From assembly GCA_019456225.1 (NCBI GenBank), contig VRUI01000023.1:1-60107 (forward strand): a stretch of DNA of 60,107 nucleotides. The letters run 5' to 3'. The translations under genes were made by a program, and so were the position numbers. The first letter of the stretch is position 1; every line of letters starts with the position of its first letter. Positions 5,676 to 60,107 of the stretch are shown here, piece by piece. The stretch comes from Planctomycetota bacterium. GTDB taxonomy: Bacteria; Planctomycetota; Phycisphaerae; Sedimentisphaerales; Anaerohalosphaeraceae. A model generated the notes under the pieces. That model was not told the origin of the DNA, made no database searches, and saw only the letters and a list, made by a program, of their open reading frames with translations.

Positions 5676-5716
5676 TGATCAAGAACTGATTTAAAAACAG
5701 AAAAGAGATAACAATG
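5676..5716 (+). repeat. Leader repeat, copy 1 (intact sulfatase)
   Basis: About 40 bases (TGATCAAGAACTGATTTAAA..., then GATAACAATGA) just before and including the sulfatase start are almost identical to 7229-7269, which heads an orphan signal peptide. The ribosome site and the start codon are inside the repeat. Confidence 0.7.
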
Positions 5717-7213
5717 AGACGAATAATGACCCTAATTGTCATAGGTGCTTCTTTGCTGGCATCGGCATCGGCTATAGCCGCGAAACCAAGCAAACCTAAT
5801 ATTGTGTTCATCTTGGTAGACGATCTTGGCTGGGCGGATATCGCGTGCTTCGGGAGTAAATTCTACGAGACGCCGAATATTGATGTTCTGGCGAAATCTG
5901 GTGTGAAGATGACCAGCGCGTATGCGGCTTGTCCGGTGTGCTCGCCGACACGTGGGAGCATCATGACGGGCAAGTATCCGGCACGGACGCAGACCACCGA
6001 CTGGTTCGGCGGCAACCGGCGGGCGAAGTTGCTGCCGGCTCCATACAAGCATTATCTGCCGTTGGAGGAAGTGACGATCGCCGAGGCGCTGAAGGAACAT
6101 GGTTATCGAACATTCTTCGCGGGCAAGTGGCACTTGGGCGGGGAGGGGTATTTTCCCGAGAAGCAGGGCTTCGACATTAATAAGGGCGGCGGGTGGAGCG
6201 GGGCTCCATATAAATCATACGGTAATCCCGGGCTGGAAAAAGACCCGAACTTGCCGGGCGGGTATTTTTCATTGTACGCCAATCCACATCTCGAAGACGG
6301 GCCCAAGGGCGAGTATCTTACAGACCGCCTGACCGACGAGGCCGTCACGTTCATCGAGGCAAACAAGGACGATCCGTTCTTAGTCTATCTGTCGTTCTAC
6401 TCGGTACATAATCCATTGCAGGCCAAGCCGGAGTACATCAAGAAGTTCAAGGAAAAGCTCGCCAAGATGCCCAAACCCAAGGGCCCCGAGTTCATCCCCG
6501 AGCACAAGAACAAGGCGCGGCAGATTCAGCAGAACCCGGTATATGCGGCCATGATTTACAGCGTCGACGAGAACGTCGGCAAGCTGATGAAGAAGCTCGA
6601 TGAGTTGGGGCTGACTGACGACACGATGGTGGTGTTCACTTCGGACAACGGCGGGCTGTCGACGTCGGAGGGTCCCAATCCGCTGGATTGGACGTCGCAG
6701 GGTCACAACACGGCGAATCTTCCGCTTCGAGGCGGGAAGGGTTGGCTTTACGAGGGCGGCGTTCGCGTGCCTACGATCGTCCGGTTCCCCGGCGTGACAA
6801 AGGCCGGAAGCGTCTGCGACGTGCCCGTGACGTCTACGGACTACTATCCGACGTTCTTGGAAATCGCGGGCCTGCCTGCCAAGCCGAAGCAGCACGCCGA
6901 CGGGGTGAGCATTGTTGCCGCTCTCAAGGGCGGGAAACTGGCTCGAAAGGCGATCTATTGGCATTATCCGCACTACGGCAACCAGGGCGGGCGGCCCGGC
7001 TCGTCGGTCCGTGCTGGCGATTACAAACTGATCGAATTCTTCGACGATGACAGCGTGGAGTTGTACAACTTGAGGGACGATATAGGGGAGAAGAAGGATC
7101 TCTCAGCATCCATGCCCGACAAGGCAGCCGAACTGAGAAAGAGGCTGCACGCCTGGCGCGCAAAAGTCGACGCCAAGATGATGAAGCCTAACCCCGCGTA
7201 CAAACAGAAATGA
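5714..7213 (+). CDS. Secreted Cys-type sulfatase (family S1)
   Basis: 499 aa with an N-terminal signal peptide (to about residue 23) and then the start of the alkaline-phosphatase-like fold (NIVFILVDDLGWAD; the DD binds metal). C76-S-P-T-R80 is the CxPxR signature whose Cys is converted to formylglycine. GKWHLGG and TSDNGG are the other conserved metal/substrate motifs. The length is normal. It hydrolyses sulfate esters outside the cytoplasm, presumably on a polysaccharide. It lies 55 bases after the SUMF1-like gene and may belong to the same transcript. The substrate subfamily cannot be assigned by eye. A Cys-type enzyme needs FGE or anSME, and neither is recognisable in this window. Confidence 0.95.
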   Translation: MRRIMTLIVIGASLLASASAIAAKPSKPNIVFILVDDLGWADIACFGSKFYETPNIDVLAKSGVKMTSAYAACPVCSPTRGSIMTGKYPARTQTTDWFGGNRRAKLLPAPYKHYLPLEEVTIAEALKEHGYRTFFAGKWHLGGEGYFPEKQGFDINKGGGWSGAPYKSYGNPGLEKDPNLPGGYFSLYANPHLEDGPKGEYLTDRLTDEAVTFIEANKDDPFLVYLSFYSVHNPLQAKPEYIKKFKEKLAKMPKPKGPEFIPEHKNKARQIQQNPVYAAMIYSVDENVGKLMKKLDELGLTDDTMVVFTSDNGGLSTSEGPNPLDWTSQGHNTANLPLRGGKGWLYEGGVRVPTIVRFPGVTKAGSVCDVPVTSTDYYPTFLEIAGLPAKPKQHADGVSIVAALKGGKLARKAIYWHYPHYGNQGGRPGSSVRAGDYKLIEFFDDDSVELYNLRDDIGEKKDLSASMPDKAAELRKRLHAWRAKVDAKMMKPNPAYKQK

Positions 7214-7228
7214 TAATGACAGCAGCCG

Positions 7229-7269
7229 TGATCAAGAACTGATTTAAAAACGAAAAAGTGATAACAATG
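7229..7269 (+). repeat. Leader repeat, copy 2 (orphan signal peptide)
   Basis: Near-identical copy of 5676-5716, including the GATAACAATGA start context. It heads the 37-aa stub described next. Confidence 0.7.
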
Positions 7270-7380
7270 AATCGAACAATGAAACGAATGATAATGCCAC
7301 TGATGGCGATTGCCGTGTTTTTCTGTGGTGTCGCCACTGGCGTTGCGGCTGGAAAGCTTGAGTTTTTGAGATCAATTTGA
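7267..7380 (+). pseudogene. Orphan signal peptide, probably a decapitated sulfatase or other exported gene
   Basis: The frame encodes 37 residues: a basic start (MNRTMKRM), a hydrophobic core (MPLMAIAVFFCGVATG) and an Ala-rich cleavage region, then six residues and TGA. The body of the gene is missing. From 7348 the sequence becomes the shared promoter-leader element that drives the next gene. The upstream leader is the same as that of the sulfatase at 5714, so this is probably a remnant of a second gene of that type whose body was replaced. Confidence 0.6.
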
Positions 7381-7450
7381 TATTCTATTGAAAAAGAGGC
7401 TCAGCAGGGTAGCTGAGCTAAGGTATACAATGTTATATGGGAAATCCCAG
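7348..7450 (+). promoter_or_regulatory. Shared promoter-hairpin leader, copy A
   Basis: TTGAGT (7358-7363), 17 bases, TATTCT (7381-7386): a sigma70-like promoter. Twelve bases after the -10 begins a perfect 7-bp hairpin, GCTCAGC / GCTGAGC (7399-7405 and 7412-7418), followed by an AT-rich motif ending TTATATGGGAAATC. The element ends 16 bases before the GTG start of the next gene. Related copies are at 23170-23270 (-), 24219-24266 (+), 28763-28853 (+) and 56242-56342 (-), each upstream of and co-oriented with a gene. Confidence 0.6.
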
Positions 7451-7465
7451 TTAAGGATAATCATA

Positions 7466-10400
7466 GTGAATCCAGTATTTAAACTGTCAGCGGCAATCAT
7501 TTTTCTTGTATTTGGGGTATTCGGTTGCCAGGAACAAATAAAAACCAGTGGGTCTTCTCTTGAGGTTGTCTTTGAGGAAGACTTTGAATCGCCGGAGGAC
7601 TATCAGAAAAGATGGCAAGCAACGTCCGGCTGGTCGCTGATGGAGGGCCAGATCGACGGCCGCAAGACCAAAGTCCTTGATATAAAAGGTGGTAACGAAG
7701 GCCTGAGTGTCCAAGGGGGTTTGGCGGATTTCGACTACGAAGCTGATTTGCGTGTAGTCAAGCAAGGGGGCGGGTTTCTGTTTCGAGCCCGGGACTCCGA
7801 TAACCTCTATATGCTGCGCCTTGTCTCCGACAACGCACCCTGGGACCGGAGTAAGTCGCCTGTTTTGACCGATTCGTTTTATCCCCACACCAAAAAAAAC
7901 GGCAAATACTCCGCCGATGTCAAACAGCCCCTGACACGCCGTCTCCCGATGAGAGAATGGTTCCATATCAAGTTTGAGGTGAGGGGGAACAGATTCAAGA
8001 TTTTTCTTGGTGAGACTCGGAGTCCTGACCGTATGGAACTGGTCGGTCAGTGGGAAGAAAAAAAGCCATTTAAGGATGGACGCTTCGGGTTTCGATGCTC
8101 TGGCTCCGAACATCTTCAGGTCGACAACATCCGTATCTCCACCCCCGGGAACCTGCAGCCTAGACTTGTGATTAAGCCTTTAGCCCCACCGCGGATGATC
8201 ACTACGGGCCAGTCCTTCGACGTCAAAGTCCACGTCCAAAATACCGGCTGGAAGTCGGCAGCGAATATGCAGGCCACGCTGTCCTTACCGCCAGGCCTGG
8301 AACTTGTGCAGGGCAGCCCCACGCTGTCCAGCTCGACCTTGAAGATCGGCGCCGACCGCTGGTTTTCCTGGAAGGTCAAGACGACTAAAGCCGTTGCGGC
8401 CCGGATGCAGATCGCTGTCACTTATGACGGTCTACCGGTTGCCAGGAAGATACCCGTCGACTATGTGGTCAACCCGGCCTCGCCGGTCATATCGGCCCAG
8501 CCGGCCCAGGAAGCTGCAGCGCGGATCGATGCCCAGGACAATGTCATACTCGAAAACCAGAATCTGCGCATGGTCTTCGTGAAGAACCTTCACGGCTACA
8601 CGGCCGCCGTCGTCTCCGCTTACGATGGTAAGCAATGGCGTCAGATGGCCGTCAGTCAGCCAATCGGAAAAATTTCCTACCGCGCGAATGCGGGATTCGC
8701 AGTGGAGACCGTTATTATACCAACTCAATACGAGATTCTAAATCCCAGCGGAGCTGTGGCGCGGGTACGTTTCACCTCTCAATTGGTGGATGATGATAAT
8801 GTAACTTGGAGTTTTGCCTATACATTCGAACTTGAAGCAGATAAGAGTAACATCAAGACCAACTACCAGGCCTTCGCCAACAACAACAGACAACTGCTTT
8901 ATTTTCAGGGACCCGATTTATATGCTGGTGAGGGAAGTTTCGGTTCCAGCAAGGACTTGGCGATCTTTCCCGGCCTGGAATACCTTCAAGCCGAAGAACA
9001 ATCCTCCTCCACCCGTGACATGGCAAATTTCATTACCTTTCATAAAAATGCAGTGGGCAATCGTTATGTACCCCATCCCCATAAAATAACTATGCCGCTC
9101 ATGGGCCTTGAGCAGAACAATGGACTCATCGGACTGATGTGGGACCCCCTGCAAAAATGGGGCGGTGATTATACCAGACCTGCTGCGAGATTTGCTTCTC
9201 CCAATTACATCGAAAAACAGGAAAACCATTTGATGGGATTGTTCTTACCCTCCGTTCCGGACTTTGTCCCGGAAAACGATGATGCAGCTTCAAGTCCCTA
9301 TCCGCTAACGGCAAATAGCCAAGTCACGCTTGAGGCCTATATAGTAGCACAAGCTCCTGGAGAAGTACTCGATATGTTGGACCAGTATTACGCAATCTTC
9401 GGCATGCCGGAAAAGATCGATGATCTGTCTATTACCTATGAGGAGGCCTTGGAATGGGGGCGTGTAGGTTACATGGAAACTATCTATGATCCTGCCACCA
9501 ATGGAATCAGACTTTGGGAACAGTCTCCTTCTTATCCGGCACCTGGAGCCATCGCGACTTTGTTCAGGTTATCGCTGGACATCACCGACCCGGCCAAAAA
9601 GAAAGTGATAAGGGACCGCGTCGATGTGATGGTAAACAGAGCCCTGAGCAATGAAGGCGTAAGGGGGCTTACGGATTGGCTAGACGGCCGGCATTTTCCC
9701 TTTGACACAAAATTTCCCGCGGGCTGCCTGCTGCGAACTCACATGTTGCCTTTTTACATCGGTTATTTGGAGGAAGGAATCGCAGCTTGGAAAACCCGGG
9801 TCTATGAAGAACTTATCAATACCCAACGCCTGGACGGAACCTGGGAATACGCCGGCGACATGAGGAAAGATATCAGGCAGGGCGATGATATTGTCAGCGG
9901 AACCATAGCCGAACTGGTGGGCGGCCTACTGAAGTATGCGCGAATCACAGGCGACAAAAAGGCCTTTGATGCCGGCATGAAGGGCTTGGAAGTGATGAAC
10001 AGTTTTATCGTACCTCGCGGCCAGAATACCTGGGAAGTCTCCAAGTACACTCCTGACATACAAGCCGCAGGTTTATCCGTTTGGGGTAATTTGGAAGCCT
10101 ACGAGATCACCGGTGATCAAAAATATATCGAAAAAGCCAAGTACTGGGCCAAAACAGGTGTGCCCTTTATCTATCATTGGGAACAGCCCGGCCTTAACGT
10201 GATGAAGTACTCCACCATCCCCGTTTTCGGCGCCACCTGGTATGATTTCATCGACTGGCTTGCCCGGCCCGTGCAGTGGTGCGGCTTGCCTCTGGGATAC
10301 AATATGATAAAACTGGCTGAATACGACCAGAGCTTCCCCTGGAAAATTCTCGGCGAGGGAATTATGGACGGCGCCATTCAGCAGATGTTGTTCGTTGTGA

Positions 10401-19137: not shown

Positions 19138-19288
19138 ATGGCTTTGCTTGAGACAAATAATGACATACCACCTTGAATATGCTATAATTCATCAAAAGCA
19201 TAGGGATTTGTATTTGATCGAGTCGAAAATGGGCATTTTGACATTGAATGCGTTGCTCAATACGCTCAAAATTCCCGTGAACGGTTAC
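19138..19288 (+). repeat. Dispersed repeat, partial copy
   Basis: Near-identical to 56515-56660 (TTTGCTTGAGACAAATA.TGACATACC..., CGCTCAAAATTCCCGT.AACGGTTA). It is the same distal part of the approximately 430-base repeat that is complete at 56242-56668. The repeat joins directly to a truncated gene end at 19289. Confidence 0.8.
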
Positions 19289-23115: not shown

Positions 23116-23169
23116 TTTGTCTCCTTGTACTTGAAAAATTGCTAAATGTAGAACCAGACTGGCTAATTC

Positions 23170-23270
23170 GAGATTTCCCATATAACCTTATATATCTTAG
23201 CTCAGCTACGCCGCTGAGCCTCTTTTCCAATAGAATACCAGATTGATCTCAAAAACTCAAGCTTTCCAGC
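23170..23270 (-). promoter_or_regulatory. Shared promoter-hairpin leader, copy B (galM)
   Basis: Minus strand: TTGAGT (complement of 23255-23260), 17 bases, TATTCT (complement of 23232-23237), then the perfect GCTCAGC-GGCGTA-GCTGAGC hairpin and the AT-rich TTATATGGGAAATC motif. It ends 55 bases before the galM start. Confidence 0.6.
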
Positions 23271-23390
23271 TTCATTTTGAGGCTATTTCTGCCAAAATAA
23301 TAGTCAAAACACGAATTTGGCCACGGACTATCGTTTCTTTGACGTACCCCAACCAGTGCCCCTTTTTGAAACTCAAGTTTTTCAGCAATT
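23271..23390 (-). repeat. Dispersed repeat, promoter-distal extension
   Basis: Continues the homology with 56343-56455 with few differences (TTCATTTTGAGGCTATTTC..., GCCACGGACTATCGTTTC). The truncated IS630-type gene begins beyond it. Confidence 0.75.
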
Positions 23391-23502
23391 CTTATCATTA
23401 GTAAACAAAACATTGCTTGAGGATATTCTAAACGGCCAAATGGTTCCATCTGCAGTAAATGAATATGTCATTACTACTTGGGAGAATGGTTGCGGAGAAG
23501 GT

Positions 23503-24128: not shown

Positions 24129-24157
24129 TTGACATTTGGTTTTCTTTTCAGTACATT
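24129..24157 (+). promoter_or_regulatory. Candidate sigma70 promoter of the UroD-like operon
   Basis: TTGACA (24129-24134), 17 bases, TACATT (24152-24157). A consensus -35 with correct spacing, 126 bases upstream of the operon start and upstream of the shared hairpin leader. Confidence 0.5.
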
Positions 24158-24218: not shown

Positions 24219-24266
24219 CAGCGGCGTAGCTGAGCTAAGATATATAAGGTTATATGGGAAATCTCG
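24219..24266 (+). promoter_or_regulatory. Shared hairpin leader, copy C (UroD-like operon)
   Basis: CAGCGGCGTAGCTGAG, then TTATATGGGAAATCTC, identical to copy B from this point on. The 5' part of the stem is altered (CTCAG lies 11 bases further upstream), and the usual promoter is replaced by unrelated sequence. It ends 17 bases before the start codon. Confidence 0.55.
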
Positions 24267-24282
24267 AATAAAGGAGTCTTTG

Positions 24283-28720: not shown

Positions 28721-28762
28721 GTGTTATTTAAGCTGTAATAGTTTCGAAAAGAAGAAAAAAAC

Positions 28763-28853
28763 TTGACTGTCTTAGATAGATTTAATATTATATTGGAATA
28801 AAGCTCAGTGGCGTAACGGAGCTAACATATCAATGAAATATGGGACATTCCAG
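28763..28853 (+). promoter_or_regulatory. Shared promoter-hairpin leader, copy D (GH31 gene)
   Basis: TTGACT (28763-28768), 17 bases, TATTAT (28786-28791), then 11 bases to the hairpin GCTCAGT-GGCGTA-ACGGAGC (28803-28822). Compared with the other copies the innermost pair changed from C-G to T-A (a compensatory change) with one internal mismatch; the downstream AT-rich motif is diverged (ATATCAATGAAATATGGGA). It ends 59 bases before the GH31 start. Confidence 0.55.
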
Positions 28854-28912
28854 ATTGGCAACGCTGGGGTGTATTCCAAACTCTCATTAACAACGCAAAT
28901 TAGGGTGATAAC

Positions 28913-31900
28913 ATGAATATCTTCAAACGAAGCACGGCGGTCTCATCTTCTCTTCTATTCCTTTTCTTGGCAGTTGTCAATACTGCTTTAGGAGCCGATT
29001 ACGCGAAGACGGGTGTCAATCTCGCGCCGGTCGCGGAACCGTCGACCTCCCACATATCGCGAGATACTTCGCTGGCGGCGCTCCACGACGGGTACGCACC
29101 CGAGCGTTCCCACAATCGCGGCAAGGGAGCGTACGGCAACTGGCCGTCCAAAGGTACCCAATGGGTCCAGTACGACTGGGCGGCCCCTGTCCGCACACGG
29201 AAGATCGATATCTTCTGGTGGCATGATAATGGCGGAATCGGCGTGCCCAAGGCCTACCGCGTGCTCTATTGGGACGGCAAGCGTTTTGTCCCGGTCCGCA
29301 ATTCCTCGGGGCTGGGGGTGGTTAAGGACAAGTTCAACACGACCACGTTCGACGAGGTCCGTACGTCCAAGCTCCGCCTGGAGATGGACGGCGACAGCAA
29401 AGGGCATTCCACGGGCATTCTCGAGTGGAAAGTGTACAACCAGGGCAAGCTTCCCAACTTTCCGCCCTCTGTCACGGCTGGCGTTGACCGCATCGTGATG
29501 CGCGGCCGAAAAATGCCGTTCGCCGGACAGTTGTTGCGGGCGATTTCTACAGACACGACGAAGGTCACCTGGAGTAAGAGCTCGGGCCCGGGCAAGGTCG
29601 CCTTCGCCGACGCCGCGGCATTGGCTACGACGGCCACGTTCTCAACCGTGGGCGACTATGTGCTCATGCTGACCGCCCGCAAGGGAAAGATGAGCGATTC
29701 ATCCACGCTGGCTGTCCGCGTTGTCAACAGACCGCAACTCGATATCCGTGCCGCAGGCAAAACCGGGGTTCGTATCACCATCCAGCCGCAGGATTCCAAA
29801 GACAAGTTTCCCTATACCCCTGCTCTGGTCGAGCGAGACTACCCCAAGGCGGCCATCAGCCTGCGCAAACTCAACTCGGCCTTCAAACCCATCAAGGCAC
29901 GAGTGGGCCAATTGAATGTGACCGTACAGAGCAACCCGTTGTCGGTGCAGGTAACCTCGTTGGACAACCGACTTCTCCAGAAGATCACGTTTGCTCCGGA
30001 TGGCAAGATGTCCTTTGTTTTGGATGACCAGCCGGTTCTGGGAATGGGCCAAGGCGGGCCTAAGCAGACCGGGAATTCCTGGCGCACCGACAAGATCGAG
30101 CTGGACCGTCGCGGGCGTTTGCATCCCATGACCCCGTGGTACGGGACGGGGACCTATGGCTCCAACAATCCGGTGCCCCTGATGATTGGCACGGCTGGCT
30201 GGGGGCTGTTCATTCCAACGCCGTCGGGCGCTATCGATCTGAGCGACTCGGAGACGGGCAAGTTCATCCCGGCGGATCCCATTGCCCCTGGCACGGTGGT
30301 CAGCCGAAGACAGCAGCGGAAAGGTCGGATCGGCTTGCCACCACCCGAGTACTTCATCCCGGGCACCTACGATGTGTTCGTCTTTGACGCACAGAATCCG
30401 GCCGCTTTCATGAAAGATATTTCGACCATCTCCGGACAAGCGGTGCTGCCGCCGAAGTGGGTGATGGGCTATCAGCAGTCGCACCGCACGGTGGAAGACG
30501 AAGACCGTATGCTTGAGGTAATCGATACCTTCCGCGACAAGAATATCCCGCTGGACAGCGTCTGCTACCTGGGCACAGGCTTCTGCCCGAGTGGCTGGAA
30601 CAAAAACCAGCCCTCATTCGAGTTCAATCCCAAGGTGTTCAAGCGCGACCCCAAAGAGGTGCTCGGAGATATGCACGACCGCAACGTGAGGGTCATGGTG
30701 CACATGATCCCTTGGGATCGGGATCGTCTGGCAACGATCCAGGGAACGATTCCGCCCAAGCCCGGTGAGAAACTCGATAGCACCCACATTCAAAACTACT
30801 GGAATGAGCACAATGCCCTGGTCGATGCCGGGGTCGATGCATGGTGGCCGGATGAAGGGGACTGGTTCGATTTTCATGAGCGAATGAAACGGCACGAACT
30901 CTACTATACAGGGCCGCTCTCGAAGCAGCCGAACGTGCGACCATGGAGCCTGCATCGCAACGGCTATCTCGGCGTCGCGCGTTGGGGCGGCTGGATGTGG
31001 CCGGGCGATCCGCTCTCGACGTGGCGGACACTGGAAACCCATATCGTCATTGGCATCAACCACTCCCTGAGTGTGTCGCCATTCTGGAACTCCGACATCG
31101 GTGCGTTTTATACGACGCCTGAATACTCGGCCGAACTGTATGTGCGTTGGGTGCAGTTTGCCGCGTTCAATTCGCTGATGCGATGTCATGGTCGAGGGTG
31201 GGAGAATCGTCTTCCCTGGGCGTGGGGTCTGGGCAAGCCGGGCACAGGCGAAGGCAGCTACACCCCGCCTGCGTCGGAAATGAACAACCCCGCGATTGAA
31301 CCTATCGCCAAGAAATACATCGAACTGCGGTATCAGCTGTTGCCCTATAACTACACGTTGACCTGGGAAGCCCGCGAAACCGGTATGCCCATGATGCGTT
31401 CGATGTGGCTGCACTACCCCAAGGACAAGAAAGCCAGTGCGACCGGCGATCAATACCTATGGGGCCGCGACATGCTGATCGCCCCGGTCCATCAAAAGGG
31501 TGCGACATCCAGAGAAGTCTATCTTCCGGAAGGCACCTGGTACGACTGGTGGACTGGCAAGGCCGTTGAGGGTGGAAAGACAGTCACCCGCCAGGTGGAC
31601 CTCTCCTGCATGCCTATCTATGTCCGCGCGGGGGCGATCATTCCAGTCGACCCGGTCCGTCAATACACCGGACAAAAGGTCGACGAACCGACGACGCTCA
31701 AGATATACCGAGGCGCCGACGGCAAATACACGTTGTACGACGACGATGGCATCAGCCTGGGTTATCTCAAGGGCGATTCGGTTCAAACGCTGATCAAGTG
31801 GGACGACTCGGCCAAGCGATTGACCCTTGAGCCCAAAGCAAAGGAAAACCCTAAGCGGACATTCAAAATTGAACTCATTCCGGACGGCACAACCAAAACG

Positions 31901-41833: not shown

Positions 41834-41875
41834 GATACAATCGAAAAACGAGCAGAAAGTAACCCATCGCAATCT

Positions 41876-41970
41876 GCTGAAAAAGGAAATAACAATGAAA
41901 AAGGAAATTAAGATGACGAAACTTATGACGGTATTTTTAGCAACTTTGATAATCGGATTGCCCTGGCCGG
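41876..41970 (+). repeat. Signal-peptide cassette, copy 1
   Basis: About 95 bases (GCTGAAAAAGGAAATAACAATG to the CCCTGGCC end of the signal) almost identical to 47333-47430 and 49312-49412. It includes the ribosome site, the start and the whole signal peptide core (MTKLMTVFLATLIIGLPW). Confidence 0.85.
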
Positions 41971-44900
41971 CTGCCGCGGACAAATTCGAAGGTGCGCCCA
42001 TACCCGACAAGCTTGTCGTGCTGACATTCGACGATGGAAACAAGTCGGACATTACCTATGCGGCTCCGCTGCTGAAACGCTACGGCTTCGGGGCGACGTT
42101 CTTCATTACCGAGGGCCTTAACTCTCGCAAGGACAAGAAGGCCTTCCTGACGTGGGATGAAGTTCGCAAGCTGAACGAATCCGGTTTTGAAATTGGCAAC
42201 CACACCCGCAGCCACCCGAACCTCGCGCGACTCTCGAAAGAAGCGATACTGGGCGAAGTTCGGCAGATGGAGGTCCGCTTCAAGGAACACGGAATCCCCT
42301 TGCCCAAAACGTTTTGTTATCCCGGCTGGCGACACGGTCCGGCGGCGGTGGAAGTGCTCGCGAAAAGTGGTTACCTTTTCGCGCGGCGCGGTTCTTCGCC
42401 TGAATATCCCGAGGAGCAAGACGTCGGGTTGGCTTACGATCCGTCGGAGGACCATCACCTGCTCGTGCCCACTACCGGGGCTTCAGGCCCGAACTGGGGA
42501 TGGGAGGAGTTCCTCCGGTCGGTCAAGAAGGCCCGTGACGGAAAGATTTGCGTGTTGGCGTTTCACGGTGTCCCCTCGTCGCTCCATCCCTGGGTCAGCA
42601 CCAAGCCGGCCGATTTTGCTCGGTATATGAAATACCTCCATGACGAGAAATACACGGTAATCGCCCTGCGCGACCTGGCCAGGTATGTGGATCCGGGCAA
42701 ACGCTCGAGCGATCCCTATGCCTCGATCAAACGGCGGCTTGGTCTGACCGCGACGGATCTGAAATGCGAATACGCCGTCAATCCGCTGGGTATCGATACG
42801 CTCAAACCAAGATTCGGTTGGATACTCGAATCGTTGCGTCGCGGGCGGAGTCAGTCGGCTTATCAGGTGCAGGTTGCCTCAAGCCCGGAGAATCTCAAGA
42901 AGGACATCGGCGACAAGTGGGACAGCGGCAAAGTGGCCTCCGACCGCTCGGTAAACGTTGAATACCGAGGGAAAGCACTCTCAAGCGATGAGCAGTGCTG
43001 GTGGAAGGTGCGCGTGTGGGATAAGAACGGCAAGGCCAGTGCCTACAGCGAGCCGGCCACGTTCGAGATGGGCTTACTGAAACAAAGCGACTGGCAAGGC
43101 GAGTGGATTGGGGCAGAGAAGAAGATATCCTCTCCACTTCTACGCAAAGAGTTTGAGATTGCCAAGGATGTCAAACAGGCCAGGGTGTATATCTCCGGCC
43201 TCGGCTGGTATGAGCTTTATGTCAATGGAAAGAGGGTAAGCGACCATGTTCTCGATCCGGCCATGACCAACTACCACAAGCACATCTCTTATGTGACGCA
43301 CGATGTTACGGATATGCTGACCAGGGGACAAAATGCAATTGCGGTTATGCTTGGTAACGGTTGGTACAGCGAGCCAGGCCGAGAGAGATACGGAAACTCC
43401 CCCACACTGCTTGCCCAGATGAACATAACGTTTATCGATGGCTACAACATGAGCATCAAAACGGATACCAGTTGGACCGCTTCAGCGGGCCCGATTACCA
43501 GAAACGGCATCCAAGGCGGAGAAACGTATGACGCTCGTCTGGAGAAAAGCGGCTGGACAAAGGCCGGCTATGACGACTCGACATGGGATCATTCCATAAC
43601 AGCGAATGATCCGGGAGGTAAAATGGTTTCCCAGTTAATGCCCCCAATCAGAGTAAATCAGACATTCGAGCCCGTCAAACTCACCAATCCGAAGCCGGGT
43701 GTATATGTTTATGACGTGGGCCAAGTGTTGTCGGGCTGGGCGCGGCTTCGCGTGAAAGGACCGAAAGGTACCAGAGTTACCATTAAGTATTCGGAGCGGA
43801 TTCAGCGGGACAGCGGGTTGTTGGACAAAACCAACCACCCACCTCCCGCGGAAACTGATTACTACATTCTGAAAGGAAACCCCGCCGGTGAGGTGTACGA
43901 GCCGAGGTTTACGTTCCATCCTTTCCGCTATGTACAGCTCGAAAATTACCCCGGCACGCCGACAGTGAAAGATCTGCAGGCCAAGGTCGTCCATTCAGCA
44001 GTCGATACGTCGGTAGAGTTCCAATGCTCGAACCCCTTGGTAAGCAGAATTCATCATATAACCTTCTGGACCATACAGAACGCTTTGTACGGTATGCCCT
44101 TGGATGCTCCTCATCGTGAGCCTTTTCCCTATCTTGAGCCTGCGGAGACTCCAGCCAATCTTTACAGCAGAAGACATATGCCGCTGTTTTGGACCAAGTG
44201 GCTTCGAGATATACAGAATGAACAGAATCCCGACGGCTCTATTCCCGTAGTTGTGCCTAATTACCCTCGTCATTATTCATTTGACCCCGCCTGGTCCGGC
44301 AATTATCCCATCGCTGTATGGTATATATATCAGTACTATGATGATGAGCGTATCCTCGCTGCCCATTATGACAGCATGAAGCAGTGGGTTGACTACGTGA
44401 CTAGTACAGCCGACGACAATAACCTTGTATTTAAGGGGACCTGGGGCGACCACATGCTCGCAGGTGTTAACCCGGGCGAAGAGGAGTATGTTTCGAGCGA
44501 AACGCCGCCGCCCTTATGCTGGACAGGCCATTATTATCGTGACGCTTCGATAGTCTCACAGGCCGCCAAAACCCTCGGCAAACATGATGACGCTCAGCAT
44601 TACGCCGAACTTGCCGAAAACATCAAAGATGCTTTCAACAAAAAATGGCTCAACACGGATACCAATCAATATGCCTTGGGTTCACAGACCGGCAATCTCT
44701 TCGCCTTGGCACTCGACGTAGTACCAGAGGCCAATCGAAAAGCCGTAGCTGCAAACGTCGCAAAGAACATCACCGAGAAATACAACGGCCATCTTCACAC
44801 CGGCATCATCGGAACCACTTCCATGATGGAGGCATTGGTCGAGAACGGCTACGGCGATGTGATGTACAACCTTGTCAACAGAACCACCTATCCGGGCTGG

Positions 44901-47246: not shown

Positions 47247-47332
47247 GCAGTATTCATCTGTGCATTACCATAAAGCAAGCTTGCCTATCTTGCCAAAAAG
47301 GTTCCTGACACCTTTTCCCAGCCCTGCTGAAA

Positions 47333-47430
47333 AAGGAAATAAAGATGAAAAAGGAAATAACAATGAAAAAGGAAACAAAGATGACGAAACTCATGACGGT
47401 ATTTTTAGCCACTTTGATAATCGGATTGCC
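47333..47430 (+). repeat. Signal-peptide cassette, copy 2
   Basis: Same cassette with an extra AAAAAGGAAATAA.ATG unit. It heads the GH127 stub. Confidence 0.85.
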
Positions 47431-47695
47431 CTGGGCCGCTGCCGCGTCCAAGAGCGACGGCTATTATGGAAAGACGAAGGTGGCTCCCAAGGCGGAAGTG
47501 AAGGCTTATCCTTTCGATCTTGGCCGTGTGAAACTGCTCTCGAGCCCATTCGAGAGAGCGATGAAGATCAACCAGAAATACCTGCTGGAACTCGACGCCG
47601 ACCGGATGCTCTGGCCCTATCACGAACGCGCCGGCCTGCCGACCAAAGGCAAGCGATATGGCGGCTGGGCGACTTTGAGACTCTCGATAATCTGA
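47345..47695 (+). pseudogene. Truncated GH127 gene (N-terminal 116 aa)
   Basis: ATG 47345. After the cassette signal the sequence is the start of a GH127 enzyme (VKAYPFDLGRVKLLSSPFERA, QKYLLELDADRMLWPYHERAG, GGW) and then breaks off and stops at 47695. The catalytic part of about 500 residues is gone. The next gene begins 20 bases later. The short remnant shows that a separate GH127 gene once stood here next to the one now fused to GH78. Confidence 0.75.
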
Positions 47696-49230: not shown

Positions 49231-49311
49231 TCTGGGATTAAGTAAAACAAGCTATGAATAAAGGGGCGTAGGGGTCAGCCCTGTAATGTGCATTAAATCA
49301 AACACAACGAT

Positions 49312-49412
49312 AACAATGAAAAAGGAAATAAAGATGAAAAAGGAAATTAAGATGACGAAACTCATGACGGTATTTTTAGCAACTTTGATAATTGGATTGC
49401 CCTGGGCAGAAG
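49312..49412 (+). repeat. Signal-peptide cassette, copy 3
   Basis: Third copy; two AAAAAGGAAAT...ATG units, then MTKLMTVFLATLIIGLPW. It heads the GH172 gene. Confidence 0.85.
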
Positions 49413-51097
49413 CCAAGGACATGAGTTATGAAGAATTGATAAGCCGGCTCTACGACATGAAGCATCTGACGACGCAACCGGAGAAGGGGGAGAAGAGTGG
49501 CAGTTTTGCCAGCTGGGACCGCGCCGCCAGATACGATGAGGCGGCGGGCAAGTATGTCAAGTGGTACGCCAACGGTGACGGTAACGGATTCATAAACCGG
49601 GACGGCACCACTATGATGAAGATGGACGGACCGGGTGTGATCTGGAGGATCTGGTCGGCGATGCCGAAAGAGGGTTCGGTCAAATTCTATATAGATGGCT
49701 CTAAGACGCCGGTTATAGACGGCCCGTTTATCGACATGTTTAACAACACGAAACCGCCTTATGATTTTCCCGAACTGGTCCATATAAAGGCCAGGGGCCA
49801 GAACTACTTCATCCCGATTCCATTCCAGAAGTCGATCAGGATCCAGGGTGGAAAGAACTGGGGGAAATTCTATCAGATCTCTTACACGAAATTCCCGGAA
49901 GGAACCCAAGTTCCGTCGTTCACCGGCACATTCTCCGATGCTGACAAAGCTGCCCTGCGCAAAGCCAATGACATTTGGGGCAAGCGCGGGCCAAAGTTGT
50001 TTGTATCGGACAAAGCCAAGGCCAAGACCGCGTCGGTGGCGCTTGCCACAGGCGAAGAGAAGACGGTTGCTGAGTTTGGCAAGCCGGGCGCCATCACGTC
50101 AATCGTTTTGGATCGTCTTAGCATGGACCGGGAAGAATCCATCGAGATCCTGCGTCAGCTGACCATCAGTATCACCTGGGATGGTCAATCCCAACCTGCC
50201 GTTTGGTCACCCCTTGGAGACTTTTTCGGCACCGCAGCCGGGGAAAATCTATTTCGTTCATTAGCAACGGGAATGACCAAGGAAGGCTATTACACGAACT
50301 GGTATATGCCGTTCAACAAGGCCAAGATTGTGGTTCGCAATGATGGAAAGAAAGCGCAGACGCTCAAGTTCACGATTCATACCGAGGACGGCGGCGACGT
50401 TGATAAACTGCTGCGCTACCACTGCAAATGGCATCGCGATGACTTCAGTGGCTTCGACAAAGAACAGTTGCAAACTGAACGGTGGCCCGATTGGCCGGTG
50501 TTGAAGATTGATGGCGCGGCCGGCCGGTTCTGCGGGTTCCAGGCGCACATGTGGAATCCGAACCACCTATGGAATAAGGAGTGTAGATCCAAGTATGAAA
50601 AACCCTTCCCCGCAGGCGATGCATTTAAACCCGGAGGGAAGCTGCACAACTTCTATATGCGGGATGTTGCTCAGCACTATTGGTGGGGCGAAGGCGACGA
50701 GAAGTTCTTTGTCGATGGTGAAAAGATGCCCTCTACCTTTGGCACGGGAACAGAAGACTACTTCGGCTACGCCTGGGGCACGTCGCAGGCGTTTGACAGT
50801 GCATTGCAGGCGCAGCCGAGGAACGGCGCTGCCGACGAAATTGGTAAGACGGCTGATCGCGCCGGTCCGGGCAATATCGGCCACATCACCATGGTGCGCT
50901 GGCAGATCGCCGACAACGTCCCGTTCCAGAAAAGTTTCGAGGCAACGGTTGAGAAGTACCATCCCAACCATTGGCCCTTGTTGAATGCCTATGCCGTCAG
51001 TTGGTACCAAACGGCAGGCACAGAGGACTATTACAAAGCCGTTCCGCCCTCAGAACGCAGCAACTATTTCATCCCGGCAACGATGAAAGCACCCTAG
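49334..51097 (+). CDS. GH172 (DUF2961) alpha-D-furanosidase-like protein
   Basis: 587 aa from ATG 49334 (AGGA 9 bases upstream); ATG 49316 is a weaker alternative. The cassette signal is followed by the DUF2961/GH172 double jelly roll: SFASWDR, GPGVIWRIW, FYIDGSKTPVIDG, then GGKLHNFYMR and GTGTEDYFG with the likely catalytic Glu at 474. Characterised members act on alpha-D-fructofuranosides or arabinofuranosides; secretion and the neighbouring GH127 fit attack on furanosidic side chains. It begins 103 bases after the sulfatase and is the last gene of the plus-strand run. Confidence 0.9.
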   Translation: MKKEIKMTKLMTVFLATLIIGLPWAEAKDMSYEELISRLYDMKHLTTQPEKGEKSGSFASWDRAARYDEAAGKYVKWYANGDGNGFINRDGTTMMKMDGPGVIWRIWSAMPKEGSVKFYIDGSKTPVIDGPFIDMFNNTKPPYDFPELVHIKARGQNYFIPIPFQKSIRIQGGKNWGKFYQISYTKFPEGTQVPSFTGTFSDADKAALRKANDIWGKRGPKLFVSDKAKAKTASVALATGEEKTVAEFGKPGAITSIVLDRLSMDREESIEILRQLTISITWDGQSQPAVWSPLGDFFGTAAGENLFRSLATGMTKEGYYTNWYMPFNKAKIVVRNDGKKAQTLKFTIHTEDGGDVDKLLRYHCKWHRDDFSGFDKEQLQTERWPDWPVLKIDGAAGRFCGFQAHMWNPNHLWNKECRSKYEKPFPAGDAFKPGGKLHNFYMRDVAQHYWWGEGDEKFFVDGEKMPSTFGTGTEDYFGYAWGTSQAFDSALQAQPRNGAADEIGKTADRAGPGNIGHITMVRWQIADNVPFQKSFEATVEKYHPNHWPLLNAYAVSWYQTAGTEDYYKAVPPSERSNYFIPATMKAP

Positions 51098-52789: not shown

Positions 52790-55700
52790 TTATTTTCCTG
52801 CCGGGTTTTCAATGACGACTGGCCCTCTGTTTTTAAGGAGCCAAGCTTTTGTCAGCGGAAGATTTTCGATCTTGCCGTTCTCTTCTTCGGGCAGGCGCCA
52901 GTCCCAGTTGACTTCAGTACGCCAGTCCTTTTGATTGCCGCCAGCTTCGACCAATGCGGTAAGGCTCGTGAGATTCTCCCGTGTTTCGCCCCCGCCCAGC
53001 TCTGCCATAACGTGACGGCGAATATAATTCATGTAAGGTTGATTGTAGTATCGTCCGGTGCAGGCATATTCAAATGCATTGAGCCATTGCTCTTCGGGCA
53101 GATATTTCAACCACGCTTCATTTTCTTTTTCTGCAACGTCTTTCTTGAGTGCGCCCAGTTCCTTCGAAGAGATGTCTTTGCTGGCGTTGGCAAGATTTTC
53201 CCGGGCTATGAGAAGCGGCTTGTGCCTGGTGACCAACTTTTCGCGTCTTGCCATACTTTCTCCCTTAAACTTCAAGAGCGGCTCCATCATCTTCTTGCTC
53301 TCGACTTTGGCTTTTTTGGCGACGACCTCGGCATCGCCGAGGATCTTTTCGTGCATAGCCAGATTGGCCTTGCTTGGGCGGACAGGCGAATCTGTCGTCG
53401 GTGCCGGAACCAAGCTAAAGTCTTCGTGGACCGTATGGTAGATCACGACGCTGTCAAAGATTGCCGCCAGAGGGCTTTTGCCATCTCGTGAATTTCCGAT
53501 TAAGTTGGCCTTGACTGCTTCGGGGCCGAATACATCGCATGGGCGGAAAGTTGTCTTGGCAGAAGCTATCTTTTCGCCGCCTAGCCACAGCGATGTAGTT
53601 TTTCCGTCAATAGCAACTCTAAGCTGCGACCATTTTCCAGCAGCAACAGCTTTTGTGCCCTTGATCGAAACAGTCTTTTTGCCGTTTACAGTTGCGGTAA
53701 GAACAGGTACTCCCGCTTTGTCGATCTTAAGAACCATGCAGTTATTCTTTGAAGTTCCAAAGTCAAATACAGTGCCATCGTTTTTCTGTTTGGCCAAAAG
53801 TTCTACAACGATCGTAGCTTCACCAAGATCGATTGCTTTGGGGCTTAGAGTTGCATACTGACCGCGACCGCCAAATTCAAATCCCATCCGCTCATCTTGT
53901 GTAACGAGTTTTGGCTCGCCGTAGACACTTCCGTTTAGCACCGGAAACAAAGGAAAAGAATAGCCCTTGCTTGCGGTGATCGGATACCTGTAAAAATCTT
54001 CAAGTATATTGCTGTCGGCGCGGTCCATGGCGTAATTTGCCCAGAGGCCGTGCTTGTGGAGTTCTTTTGCGCCTGGCCTTTTATGCAGCAGCTTAGGGAC
54101 GGGAATGTCTTTTTCAGCTGGCAGCCAGCTTCTGCTATAGCCTTCCATGACTGCGTTTCCATTTACAAGTGCGCCTCCAAAGGCTTTTGCATTGTCTTTT
54201 AATGTGGCGTCATTCATGACCACGGCAAAGTCTTCAACTCTTGCATTGCCCAGGACCTTTGCGTTGTTGAGGACCATTGCGTTAGGGCCAACGTAGGCAG
54301 TGGCGTCAACAGTTGCCGAATCAGCAACCCAGCCGCCGCCGTTTGGATGCTGTTTGCCGATTTTGGCTGGCAGGAGTTTTCCTTTTTCGCGATAAGTGCT
54401 TGCGATGCCGTATTCGCCTTTGATCTTGTGCGGGCTGCCGGGGTTTGCGCCTCTTAGCCTTACGGTCCATGGATATCTGCTGGCGTGGCGACCGCTGACG
54501 AAGAGCCGATTATTACCCTTGCGGAATTTTTCAGGCATATAAAGAGCTGTCGGCGTAGCCGCAACCGATAGCCAGTGCGAAACGTCGCCAGGTTTTACCA
54601 GCAGCGTCATCTTTCCTTTGCTCCAGAGGTTCGAGTATCTGCGGGTCCCGTCTGCTTCGACAGCGATCAGGCATGCTCTCCAGTCGCTGTAGGTGTCCGG
54701 GTTGTGTATGCCCGCAAAATCAACCTCGATCACTCTTGCGCCCTTATCAGCGACGAGCCTGACAAAGTTCATGCCGAACGGCTCTGGTGCAAAATCTGCA
54801 GGGATCTGCCATTTGTTTTGCTTTTCGTCGACACATTCCAACCAGTTTCTTGCCGGGCAGTGCCATTGTTTGCGGAACTCTGTTTCCATTTCGCAGTCAA
54901 AAGTAGCGAGCCTTGCCGCGTATTCGCCTACCATGTCGCCGACGCCGACGATGCCGTTTTCGGCCATGCCTCTTTGCTCGAGAACTCTTGCGATCGTGTG
55001 CATCATGCTGTTTTCTTCTCTGCCAAGTGGCATTGCGGAAAACCAGCCGTAACCCCAGTTTGGATCGTCGCCGATCACGCAGTAGAATGAAGTATAGCCA
55101 TAGCCGTTAAAGCCGTTGAAGATATTTCTCGATGGACGTCGCAGGTGGTTGCCGCCTTTTGGTCTGGCATTGACAAAGCTGGCACAGGTATCGGCCCCGG
55201 CTTCACCGCCGCCGACATGAACGGAATTTATACGTAAACCGTGGCCCCATTCGTGGCCGAGGATGCCGTTGGACGCACCTTTGTTTATGCACCCGCCACG
55301 TCCGCCGCCAGCATAGCCAGGGATGACTTTGTAACCATCGCGTTTGGTGCCTGCGACGGTGATGGCGTATTTTATTTGAGTGTCCGCATCCCAATATGGC
55401 ATCAACAGGCCGCTGTATTCATAGAGGCTCCACATTGCCTCTGCCCATGCCACAGCCTTTGCCCGGTAGAGATCGCTCTTTTGGGGGTCCTTCGCTGAAA
55501 CCCATGGGTCGCCGTCAGATCCTGACTCTGAACCGGATACCCATACGAAATGATCGCTTACAACCTGCATCGTACCGGGCTCGCCGGGTTTTGCGTTGTT
55601 TGGGAATTCCTTGTGGTTTTTTTCGCGTATAGCGTATTCGGTCTTGTCGCTGGCGTCGCGGATGCGTTTCATCTCGCCTTTGAATAGCTTTATGATGAAA

Positions 55701-56149
55701 TCCTTGTCCTCTTGCGAGAAACTGCCTGGCTGGAAGGATCTTTTGCGGCCGTCACCTAAACGCAGCACAACTGCTGGTGCCACCTCCGTCTTAAATGGCT
55801 CTTCGTCGATCGTATAGCCAACGCCTCTAAAGCCGATCAGGTGAGCCTTTAACGAGGTGCCATCAGAGAGTTTCCATGTTCTAAGGGGCATACCCTTTTC
55901 AATTTTGACAAAATCGACGCCCTTTCGGGGCCAGAACTCAACCTCCCGCCGGGCATATTCCGCCGCCCCGCCTCCGGGAGTGACCACCTTCTGCAATTCA
56001 ACGCCAGGTCGTAACTCTTTGCCCGGATATTGACTACCCTTATAGAACTCGTAATCTGTCTCAGCCGCACAGACATTGCCAACAATAAAGCAGACCGCCA
56101 TGATGATAGCGGCAGACAGGTAATGATTTTTACGTAGTGGTGTAACCAT
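52790..56149 (-). CDS. Secreted SHD1-like / HEWGH metallopeptidase-like / LamG multidomain protein, copy 2
   Basis: 1119 aa, ATG 56149 with GGGGATG just upstream, signal or anchor helix to about residue 30. About 90-150 is SHD1-like (RTWKLSDGTSLKAHLIGFRG, DGRKRSF). H299-E-W-G-H303 plus a Glu 13 residues further (GGGE) gives the HExGHx(8-28)E pattern. GDDPNWGYG follows the site, as in copy 1. About 600-655 has hexapeptide-like helix repeats (AYVGPNAMVLNNAKVLGNA), about 757-915 a LamG sandwich and the remainder a charged helical tail. It is 250 residues shorter than copy 1, mainly because of the shorter coiled coil. The shared promoter-hairpin leader lies 93 bases upstream. Confidence 0.86.
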   Translation of the reverse strand: MVTPLRKNHYLSAAIIMAVCFIVGNVCAAETDYEFYKGSQYPGKELRPGVELQKVVTPGGGAAEYARREVEFWPRKGVDFVKIEKGMPLRTWKLSDGTSLKAHLIGFRGVGYTIDEEPFKTEVAPAVVLRLGDGRKRSFQPGSFSQEDKDFIIKLFKGEMKRIRDASDKTEYAIREKNHKEFPNNAKPGEPGTMQVVSDHFVWVSGSESGSDGDPWVSAKDPQKSDLYRAKAVAWAEAMWSLYEYSGLLMPYWDADTQIKYAITVAGTKRDGYKVIPGYAGGGRGGCINKGASNGILGHEWGHGLRINSVHVGGGEAGADTCASFVNARPKGGNHLRRPSRNIFNGFNGYGYTSFYCVIGDDPNWGYGWFSAMPLGREENSMMHTIARVLEQRGMAENGIVGVGDMVGEYAARLATFDCEMETEFRKQWHCPARNWLECVDEKQNKWQIPADFAPEPFGMNFVRLVADKGARVIEVDFAGIHNPDTYSDWRACLIAVEADGTRRYSNLWSKGKMTLLVKPGDVSHWLSVAATPTALYMPEKFRKGNNRLFVSGRHASRYPWTVRLRGANPGSPHKIKGEYGIASTYREKGKLLPAKIGKQHPNGGGWVADSATVDATAYVGPNAMVLNNAKVLGNARVEDFAVVMNDATLKDNAKAFGGALVNGNAVMEGYSRSWLPAEKDIPVPKLLHKRPGAKELHKHGLWANYAMDRADSNILEDFYRYPITASKGYSFPLFPVLNGSVYGEPKLVTQDERMGFEFGGRGQYATLSPKAIDLGEATIVVELLAKQKNDGTVFDFGTSKNNCMVLKIDKAGVPVLTATVNGKKTVSIKGTKAVAAGKWSQLRVAIDGKTTSLWLGGEKIASAKTTFRPCDVFGPEAVKANLIGNSRDGKSPLAAIFDSVVIYHTVHEDFSLVPAPTTDSPVRPSKANLAMHEKILGDAEVVAKKAKVESKKMMEPLLKFKGESMARREKLVTRHKPLLIARENLANASKDISSKELGALKKDVAEKENEAWLKYLPEEQWLNAFEYACTGRYYNQPYMNYIRRHVMAELGGGETRENLTSLTALVEAGGNQKDWRTEVNWDWRLPEEENGKIENLPLTKAWLLKNRGPVVIENPAGK

Positions 56150-56241
56150 ACTAACATCCCCATTAAAATATGTTTAAAACAAAATTCAGTTCAGATAAAT
56201 CATCAACAGCTGAATTTGCAGTTGTTAAAGCATTATAAACT

Positions 56242-56342
56242 GAGATTTCCCATATAACCTTATATATTTCAACTCAGCTACGCCGCTAAGCCTCTTTTTC
56301 AAAAAGATACCAGATTGACCTCAAAAAGTCAAGCTTTCCAGC
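56242..56342 (-). promoter_or_regulatory. Shared promoter-hairpin leader, copy E (HEWGH gene)
   Basis: Minus strand: TTGACT (complement of 56327-56332), 17 bases, TATCTT (complement of 56304-56309), then GCTTAGC-GGCGTA-GCTGAGT. Two positions changed, and both keep pairing as G-T wobbles (RNA G-U). The AT-rich TTATATGGGAAATC motif is intact. Confidence 0.6.
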
Positions 56343-56668
56343 TTCATTTTGAGGCTATTTCTGACAAAATAATAGTCAAAACACGAATTTGGCCACGGAC
56401 TATCGTTTCTTTGACGTACCTCACCCAGTGTCTCCGTCTGAAATCCAAGTTTTTCAAGTCAAGTTTCGTCCTCAAGTTTGCCAACACGATTATGATCGGA
56501 CAAATTCAGGGCCTTTGCTTGAGACAAATATTGACATACCACCTTGAATATGCTATAGTTCATCAAAAGCATAGGGATTTGTATTTGATCGAGTCGAAAA
56601 TGGGCATTTTGACATTGAGTGCGTTGCTCAATACGCTCAAAATTCCCGTCAACGGTTAGCGATATTAT
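56343..56668. repeat. Dispersed repeat, complete copy (with 56242-56342)
   Basis: The first 110 bases match 23271-23390, the part 56447-56536 matches 60019-60107, and 56515-56660 matches 19138-19288. This copy is therefore the only one in the window that holds all segments (about 430 bases with the leader). It lies head to head between the minus-strand HEWGH gene and the plus-strand gene at 56755; the remaining 86 bases before that gene contain its AAGGAAAAG site. Confidence 0.75.
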
Positions 56669-59961: not shown

Positions 59962-60018
59962 GCAGCAATAATAGACCGAAAAATAAGAATTACTTAGCCA
60001 ACACCCAAAATTGTTCTG

Positions 60019-60107
60019 TTTTTCAAGTCAAGTTTCGTCCTCAAGTTTGCCAACACGATTATTATCGGACAAATTTAGGGCCTTTGCTTGAGACAAATAT
60101 TGACATA
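60019..60107 (+). repeat. Dispersed repeat, partial copy running out of the window
   Basis: Same sequence and direction as 56447-56536 with two or three differences; it continues past the window edge. Confidence 0.8.

Follow-up and report, generated by a model that had tools for sequence, protein, structure and literature searches.

Right ends of an IS1380-type insertion sequence, with a candidate outward promoter and a hairpin leader, before genes of a planctomycete

Five copies of a promoter and hairpin

A short stretch of DNA that combines a candidate promoter and a hairpin precedes five genes in the window, i.e., the whole 60,107-nucleotide stretch analyzed here, which is contig C57 of a genome assembly (G000) of 4.45 Mb in 152 contigs. 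Is it an element through which these genes are regulated together, a structured 5′ leader, or a repeat of another origin? The original prediction listed five copies directed toward the gene behind them, and direct reading of the window located all five in that position and orientation. Copy A (7348-7450, plus strand), a 5′-truncated IS1380-type right end composed of promoter, leader, and terminal repeat, lies before the gene that starts with GTG at 7466. On the same strand it includes a candidate outward promoter identified by its match to the consensus (TTGAGT-17-TATTCT, 7358-7386), the hairpin H1 (GCTCAGC/GCTGAGC, 7399-7418), recognized by sequence, alignment, and fold, the position of a second hairpin, H2 (7423-7438), placed by alignment, weak there and missing from the minimum-energy fold of this copy, and the terminal inverted repeat TGGGAAATCCCAG at the right end of the insertion sequence (7438-7450). 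Copy B (23168-23401, minus strand), a longer right end before galM, includes a block that in longer copies trails the transposase stop codon. Copy C (24219-24269, plus strand) has only the leader part; it precedes the UroD-like gene and stands behind an unrelated candidate promoter (24129-24157). Copy D (28763-28853, plus strand) is a diverged right end before the GH31 gene, with a sister copy at C140:12774, and copy E (56240-56456, minus strand) is a longer right end before the DUF6055 gene at 52790-56149.

A repeat search of the window showed that copies A, B, C, and E share 84-93% identity over 45-215 nt, and the stretch common to B and E (215 nt, 91%) exceeds the leader. Since the best non-self BLAST match of copy B in its own genome has an E value of 6.2e-46, and given the resemblance of the four copies, chance can be excluded as their source. 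Copy D, which is more diverged, was not joined to the others by the repeat search of the window and was recovered by the leader covariance model (41.3 bits, E 2.9e-8). The part of copy C in common with the others is limited to approximately 24219-24269, which leaves most of its left hairpin arm with a different sequence. Two neighboring stretches have repeats of their own. The segment directly before copy A (7229-7347) repeats the start of a sulfatase gene (5676-5736, 85% over 61 nt) and, by eye, breaks off inside its signal peptide at the left edge of copy A. Copy D (28743-29002 in this comparison) and its sister, L053/L055, are 94% identical over 262 nt, a length that covers the element and some 90 nt from the beginning of the gene; past this common start the proteins diverge, leaving one signal peptide on different proteins.

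From 5′ to 3′ the element consists of TTGAnT-17-TATnnT, 12 nt, H1, H2 (A/T-rich, with the loop AATG or AAGG), TGGGAAATCYCAG, and an NTNA-like site ahead of the ribosome-binding site of the gene itself; the terminal repeat of the element is GGGAAATCYCAG. The promoter pattern that had been proposed for four copies was found in A, B, D, and E by the regular expression TTGNNN-17-TANNNT (at 7358, 23260 minus, 28763, and 56332 minus, respectively), and in A and B the −10 box is separated from H1 by 12 nt, within the 11-12 bases given for the hairpin. In the common part of copy C the same expression found no match, and the promoter at 24129 is an unrelated TTGACA-17-TACATT; copies C, L042, and L051 consist of the leader part and thus lack the element's promoter.

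The genome was then searched with two covariance models. R1, built from the 54-nt leader of 13 copies of this genome with the promoter left out, produced 27 matches at E <= 0.04, all five window copies among them, while R2, built from 104 aligned matches, produced 25 at E <= 1e-4. The genome is thus estimated to have 25-27 copies; BLAST with copy B found 24 matches at E < 1e-9, self included. From related genomes, 80 matches with E <= 6.4e-4 were added to the analysis. The promoter is absent from both models used to find the copies. Nonetheless, TTGNNT-17-TANNNT was in register in 57 of 106 leader matches, as opposed to 106 of 21400 random positions (0.5%), in agreement with the conservation that had been predicted. 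A looser promoter score was reached by 77/105 copies, compared with 24% in shuffles and 15/100 farther upstream. The terminal segment was also considered as a coding mini-ORF (ATG GGA AAT CCC AGN TAA) in the 95 of 107 copies that have a recognizable terminal segment and enough sequence. This reading was rejected: the third codon positions are no freer than the others, and in-frame stops (37/95) are located together with out-of-frame ones (23).

Relationship to the right end of IS1380 insertion sequences

All-against-all BLAST comparisons defined a sharp 3′ boundary just past the leader and ragged 5′ boundaries. Counted from the first base of the leader, homology reaches about −187 among copies of this genome, −196 across genomes, and farther in diverged pairs. 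In the long copies, the sequence upstream of the promoter is that which trails a transposase stop codon. The transposase fragment of this genome (contig C90) matches PF13701 (6.8e-56), and the transposases of two loci, L207 and L211, are identified as IS1380 by NF033539 (1.7e-111 and 3.6e-110; 373 and 369 bits, with a cutoff of 180). Complete relatives have the left end CCCGGATTTCCCA and the right end TGGGAAATNYCRG, and the hairpin copies have the same right end. The complete insertion sequence at L207 is 1674 bp long. A target duplication of about 5 bp would be expected of this family; exact flanking repeats were found at L207 (TTAA), L209 (ATAAC), and L040 (ATTAAG) and are absent or imperfect in most others.

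The connection between transposase and hairpin copies is seen in L211, where a 449-aa transposase is followed by a block of the hairpin-copy type that runs up to the contig end 142 nt on, short of the promoter. This block is 79-80% identical to hairpin copies over 113-131 nt in the best four matches (E down to 1.2e-19), versus a best E of 0.029 against nine right ends that have no hairpin. Complete IS1380 relatives mostly do not include such hairpins; eight of nine complete copies do have an outward TTGNNN-16/18-TANNNT 82-94 nt from the right end, and in L207 the match is TTGACA-17-TATAAT. A leader match at E <= 0.5 is present at 8 of 30 transposase loci, four of them strong (L206, L225, L230, and L234) and one, L217, weak (21.9 bits). 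L206, L230, and L234 each combine a remnant of the transposase with a strong leader match, and in L230 and L234 the leader is downstream of the remnant on the same strand. Remnants also lie upstream of the leader copies L041 and L123 as well as of L230 and L234, with a broken one in L114. A search upstream of the 107 leader copies found the left-end 13-mer, with at most two mismatches, in eight cases, exact in six of them, and its reverse complement in one. None of the copies recovered combines an intact transposase and a hairpin-type right end with the flanks on both sides. Because the homology enters post-transposase sequence and the ends match, the leader is identified as an IS1380-type right end with a putative outward promoter, and, as judged from these alignments, the window copies are descendants of such an end.

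An IS110-linked origin was also considered, since PF02371 was found in four places, and rejected: it is with an IS1380 gene that the element is in register. Near L050, L128, and L161 there are motifs that we take to be IS110-like N-termini. In four hairpin-less IS1380 relatives (L229, L221, L207, and L226), a ribosome-binding-like site and an ATG read out across the right end. In L229, from position 1935, the outward frame crosses a lipoprotein-like signal sequence and meets no stop over 100 codons or more; a fusion between the insertion sequence and a host protein is possible there.

A second repeat family has the same habit and occupies 56449-56658, 19142-19287, and 60018-60107 of the window, all on the plus strand. 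It was found in 23 places of the genome, most with one 3′ end point (..CCCGTGAACGGTTA) and with ragged 5′ ends. Among 12 copies examined, the nine longer ones have TTGACA-17-TATAAT or a near match, and all 12 are followed by a same-strand ORF 5-180 nt past the end, within 150 nt in ten cases. Upstream of L265, on the other strand, there is a piece of zf-IS66 at 5.4e-06, just under the cutoff, which suggests that this family is an IS66-type end. At 56240-56658, copy E and the IS66-like end are back to back, and two candidate transposon-derived promoters face two genes divergently. At L263 (C100:9520-9735), one mobile end sits inside another: by eye, the IS1380-type right end L045 is joined to the IS66-like end between its −35 and −10 positions. 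Repeats of a different kind, short tandem units around ATGAAAAAGGAAATAA.., surround three gene starts of the window (41874-41992, 47324-47460, and 49295-49431) and resemble repeated ribosome-binding and start sites.

Pairing and covariation of the leader stems

The original prediction suggested selection on the promoter and the palindrome. It had described a compensatory change from C-G to T-A in copy D, which is present, although the same stem also has an A.G mismatch, and two changes that keep pairing in copy E, which are there and are both of the G.U type. Pairing of the stem is supported beyond the window by an alignment of 94 distinct rows (A3), in which 85.1% of stem cells pair and pairing falls to 36-38% when the partner is slid by one column. 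Two-sided stem changes numbered 53 versus 31.1 (sd 3.7) in shuffled alignments, and the covariation was 0.199 versus 0.167; none of 500 shuffles was as high, with the reservation that A3 was aligned to the structure of the model and that related sequences inflate such covariation numbers. Two-sided changes occurred in all seven H1 pairs (7/7). In an alignment of 13 similar copies of this genome (A2), covariation was not above that of shuffles, and RNAalifold, run on A3, returned no consensus. For eight folded copies the z-scores ranged from −0.16 to −4.0, and the innermost pair of H2 is unpaired in 52 of 89 cells. G.U exceeds A.C by 91:45 in stems versus 142:99 at unpaired sites, a strand-specific signal above background that is weak. 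The stem may be an operator or an RNA structure, with the RNA structure favored.

A leader that senses a ligand, a protein, or temperature, captured and spread by an insertion sequence, would also produce a covarying stem. It would fit as well the extended H1 variants, in which both sides change together (L117 versus L048, for example), and the conservation of the terminal segment. However, the terminal repeat of the insertion sequence explains the conserved unpaired segment, no expression platform was seen beyond the stems, and Rfam at gathering scores had no match in the window, with copy A returning weak sRNA matches on the opposite strand only. We therefore consider such a sensor rather improbable. 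In the reading that we prefer, an IS1380 right end with an outward promoter, H1 may act in the RNA, and its role would most likely be the protection of the mRNA 5′ end.

Placement, spread, and retention before genes

Orientation toward a gene was not peculiar to the window. Downstream of 94 of 102 copies, an ORF of 100 aa or more begins on the same strand within 150 nt, and such an ORF is found on the divergent upstream side of 15 of 101 (copies among the 107 with enough flanking sequence on each side). The random placement relative to genes that would have reduced the element to a dispersed repeat was therefore not observed. A control with random positions (0.40, 0.50) was left unused, as it counts starts inside genes.

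The original prediction had also raised a regulon; in such a regulon of glycan genes, a common transcription factor on the palindrome or an RNA regulator on the leader would exert joint control. The promoter and stem are indeed conserved and gene-directed, and several products encoded downstream in this genome are glycan enzymes or sulfatases. The 26 downstream proteins of this genome, six without a family, include an aldose epimerase, sulfatases, GH130/32-like proteins, rhaM, GT9, M2 and M24 peptidases, CBS, a methyltransferase, and the UroD-like protein, among others. In relatives the commonest families account for only 4 of 72 proteins each (72 of 73 were kept, as L131 repeats L101); the product downstream of L114 is, going by its N-terminus, presumably a cold-shock-like protein. 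Many N-termini look secreted, in a raw look made without a genome background. No shared pathway is evident because these families, with GreA and HU-like proteins among them, are functionally mixed in raw family tallies. Furthermore, the conserved DNA runs on into transposase remnants, and copy number is sharply different between related genomes. A common regulon is hence improbable, and what the five leaders share is explained by IS1380-type descent.

Another possibility is that the insertion sequence takes the gene next to its right end along, and promoter and gene move as a unit. Members of IS1380 do so (PMC9330008), and in two possible cases, L143/L159 (G045) and L053/L055 of this genome, homology extends past the element. 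On the other hand, in 94 of 101 copies compared across genomes homology stops no more than about 50 nt from the leader, and the seven exceptions concern greA (3), an HU-like gene (2), and a sulfatase-like gene (2). Transposition of such a module is thus very unlikely as the general case; homologous promoter regions precede non-homologous genes, as expected of mobile promoters.

With R2, the leader was detected in 59 of the 161 genomes that represent the order (apparently Sedimentisphaerales), in 22 of 298 genomes of a class sample, two of them outside the order and both in one other family, and in 1 of 294 genomes of a phylum sample, the present genome itself; the class and phylum searches used stricter filters that lose weak matches. 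A pattern scan of a collection of 84,980 species returned 29 stretches, and 28 of them are titled Planctomycetota, Phycisphaerae, or Sedimentisphaerales. The remaining one, L175 (JAUXAG010000012.1), is titled Actinomycetes and carries a leader and an IS1380 transposase remnant; a wrong title, a mixed bin, or a transfer are all possible. Carriage by phages was rejected, as one exact pattern searched in viral contigs had no match. The nearest neighbor of a copy lies in the same genome in 36 of 107 cases, compared with 9% in label shuffles. This is the case for 20/27 copies here and 7/8 in G057, and for none in G031, G002, and G010, a pattern that points to bursts in some genomes and to older or exchanged copies elsewhere.

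Transposases were searched at E <= 1e-10 among 159 genomes of the order (the leader search covered 161), and 39 of them had a match, a few distant (37-41% identity). A match was found in 23 of the 59 leader-bearing genomes, and the other 36 had none listed. In the present genome the transposase is seen as a 208-aa fragment and as two short pieces of the C-terminus; since metagenome assemblies often break at repeats, an intact copy could be missing from the assembly.

Of 20 genomes searched, 14 had a greA match; the leader is found upstream of this gene in G045, G157, G039, and G053, and G035 has, by eye, a like promoter at this place with no leader match. The leader also precedes an HU-like gene in G035, G157 (two genes), G155 (weak, E 0.006), and G015, and was not found upstream of the HU-like gene in G026 and G013. 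A match near greA in G015 (17.7 bits, E 0.14), elsewhere in L245, was left uncounted. In these nine greA and HU loci the H1 pairs hold in 59 of 63 cells, with double changes of GC to TA and CG to AT. All nine have a promoter match under relaxed criteria, while the exact sequence GGGAAAT occurs in the 110 nt before the start in 0/9. The terminal repeat is degraded, and promoter and hairpin persist. These loci would then descend from insertion sequence ends, as indicated by homology of the promoter and H1 rather than of terminal repeats.

This retention bears on whether the position before genes is due to target preference of the insertion sequence, with the repeat having no effect on the genes. 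An NTNA-like site follows the right end, and a start codon lies 11-25 nt past the element in 32 of 99 copies (eight of 107, which had no called ORF, were dropped). Moreover, among 11 loci whose right end is readable and whose transposase frame spans 380 aa or more, eight have an ORF of at least 90-100 aa on the same strand no more than 150 nt away; one of the eight, L210, is doubtful, as a longer opposite ORF overlaps. With ORFs also behind these right ends and an NTNA-like site, placement alone cannot prove selection. Nonetheless, the greA and HU loci of several genera keep promoter and H1 after the body was lost and the terminal repeat degraded, and a dispersed repeat without effect is quite unlikely.

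We regard as very probable that the element is an IS1380 right end with an outward promoter and leader that is kept before genes as the transposase decays. Insertion sequences of this family in this planctomycete order would have a sigma70-like promoter just inside the right terminal repeat, facing outward. Transcription would start about 7 nt past the −10 box, with H1 almost immediately at the 5′ end, and the transcript would then cross the weaker H2 and the terminal repeat into the host ribosome-binding site and gene. Insertion would swap the gene's 5′ region for the promoter and leader of the insertion sequence; as the transposase decays, both would stay because the gene depends on them. 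A bolder version is unlikely, in our opinion: the right end would have evolved as a portable expression start for host genes, landing directly before Shine-Dalgarno sequences, with a leader stem that sets mRNA life or answers a common signal, and repeated spread together with retention would have given rise to a regulon made by transposons, with greA and HU-like genes among its members.

Promoter regions that recur almost identically in front of unrelated genes have reportedly been described by van Passel, Nijveen, and colleagues. The term "mobile promoters", credited to them, is used in PMC9208149, and the planctomycete copies resemble these in that homologous promoter regions stand before unrelated genes; the difference is that here the insertion sequence acting as carrier is identified together with its ends, and the repeated unit also contains a structured leader. 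The same source, a large survey, reports that IS1380 is over-represented between co-oriented genes. Outward promoters are established for ISEcp1 and ISPme1, both of the IS1380 family, in PMC9330008, where the promoter of ISPme1 is described as strong and this element as mobilizing DNA at its 3′ end. ISEcp1 has an IS1380-type transposase and a complete outward promoter at its end that drives the neighbor gene (PMC9330008). The planctomycete element resembles it, with a promoter that is predicted here, but has a covarying stem-loop leader after the promoter, most of its copies are ends without transposase, and its hosts are Planctomycetota known from metagenome assemblies. IS1247, like ISPme1 a member of the IS1380 family from Paracoccus, is listed in PMC3281130 with 1672 bp, IR 16/13, and DR 5, close in size to L207 (1674 bp); unlike in ISPme1 and IS1247, co-mobilized cargo is rarely visible in the planctomycete copies. 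Within the literature searched, a covarying leader in the right end and its long persistence before core genes look new; none of the titles and abstract openings listed describes this element, which is no proof of absence.

A motif common to the fronts of several glycan genes need not mean a regulon. These copies are countable natural cases of how mobile promoters are captured and kept, and any effect of the covarying leader is open to reporter testing. Our results suggest that, in one genome of a little-known lineage, transposon ends serve as standing promoters of about two dozen genes and, in its relatives, of core genes, well past the decay of the transposon.
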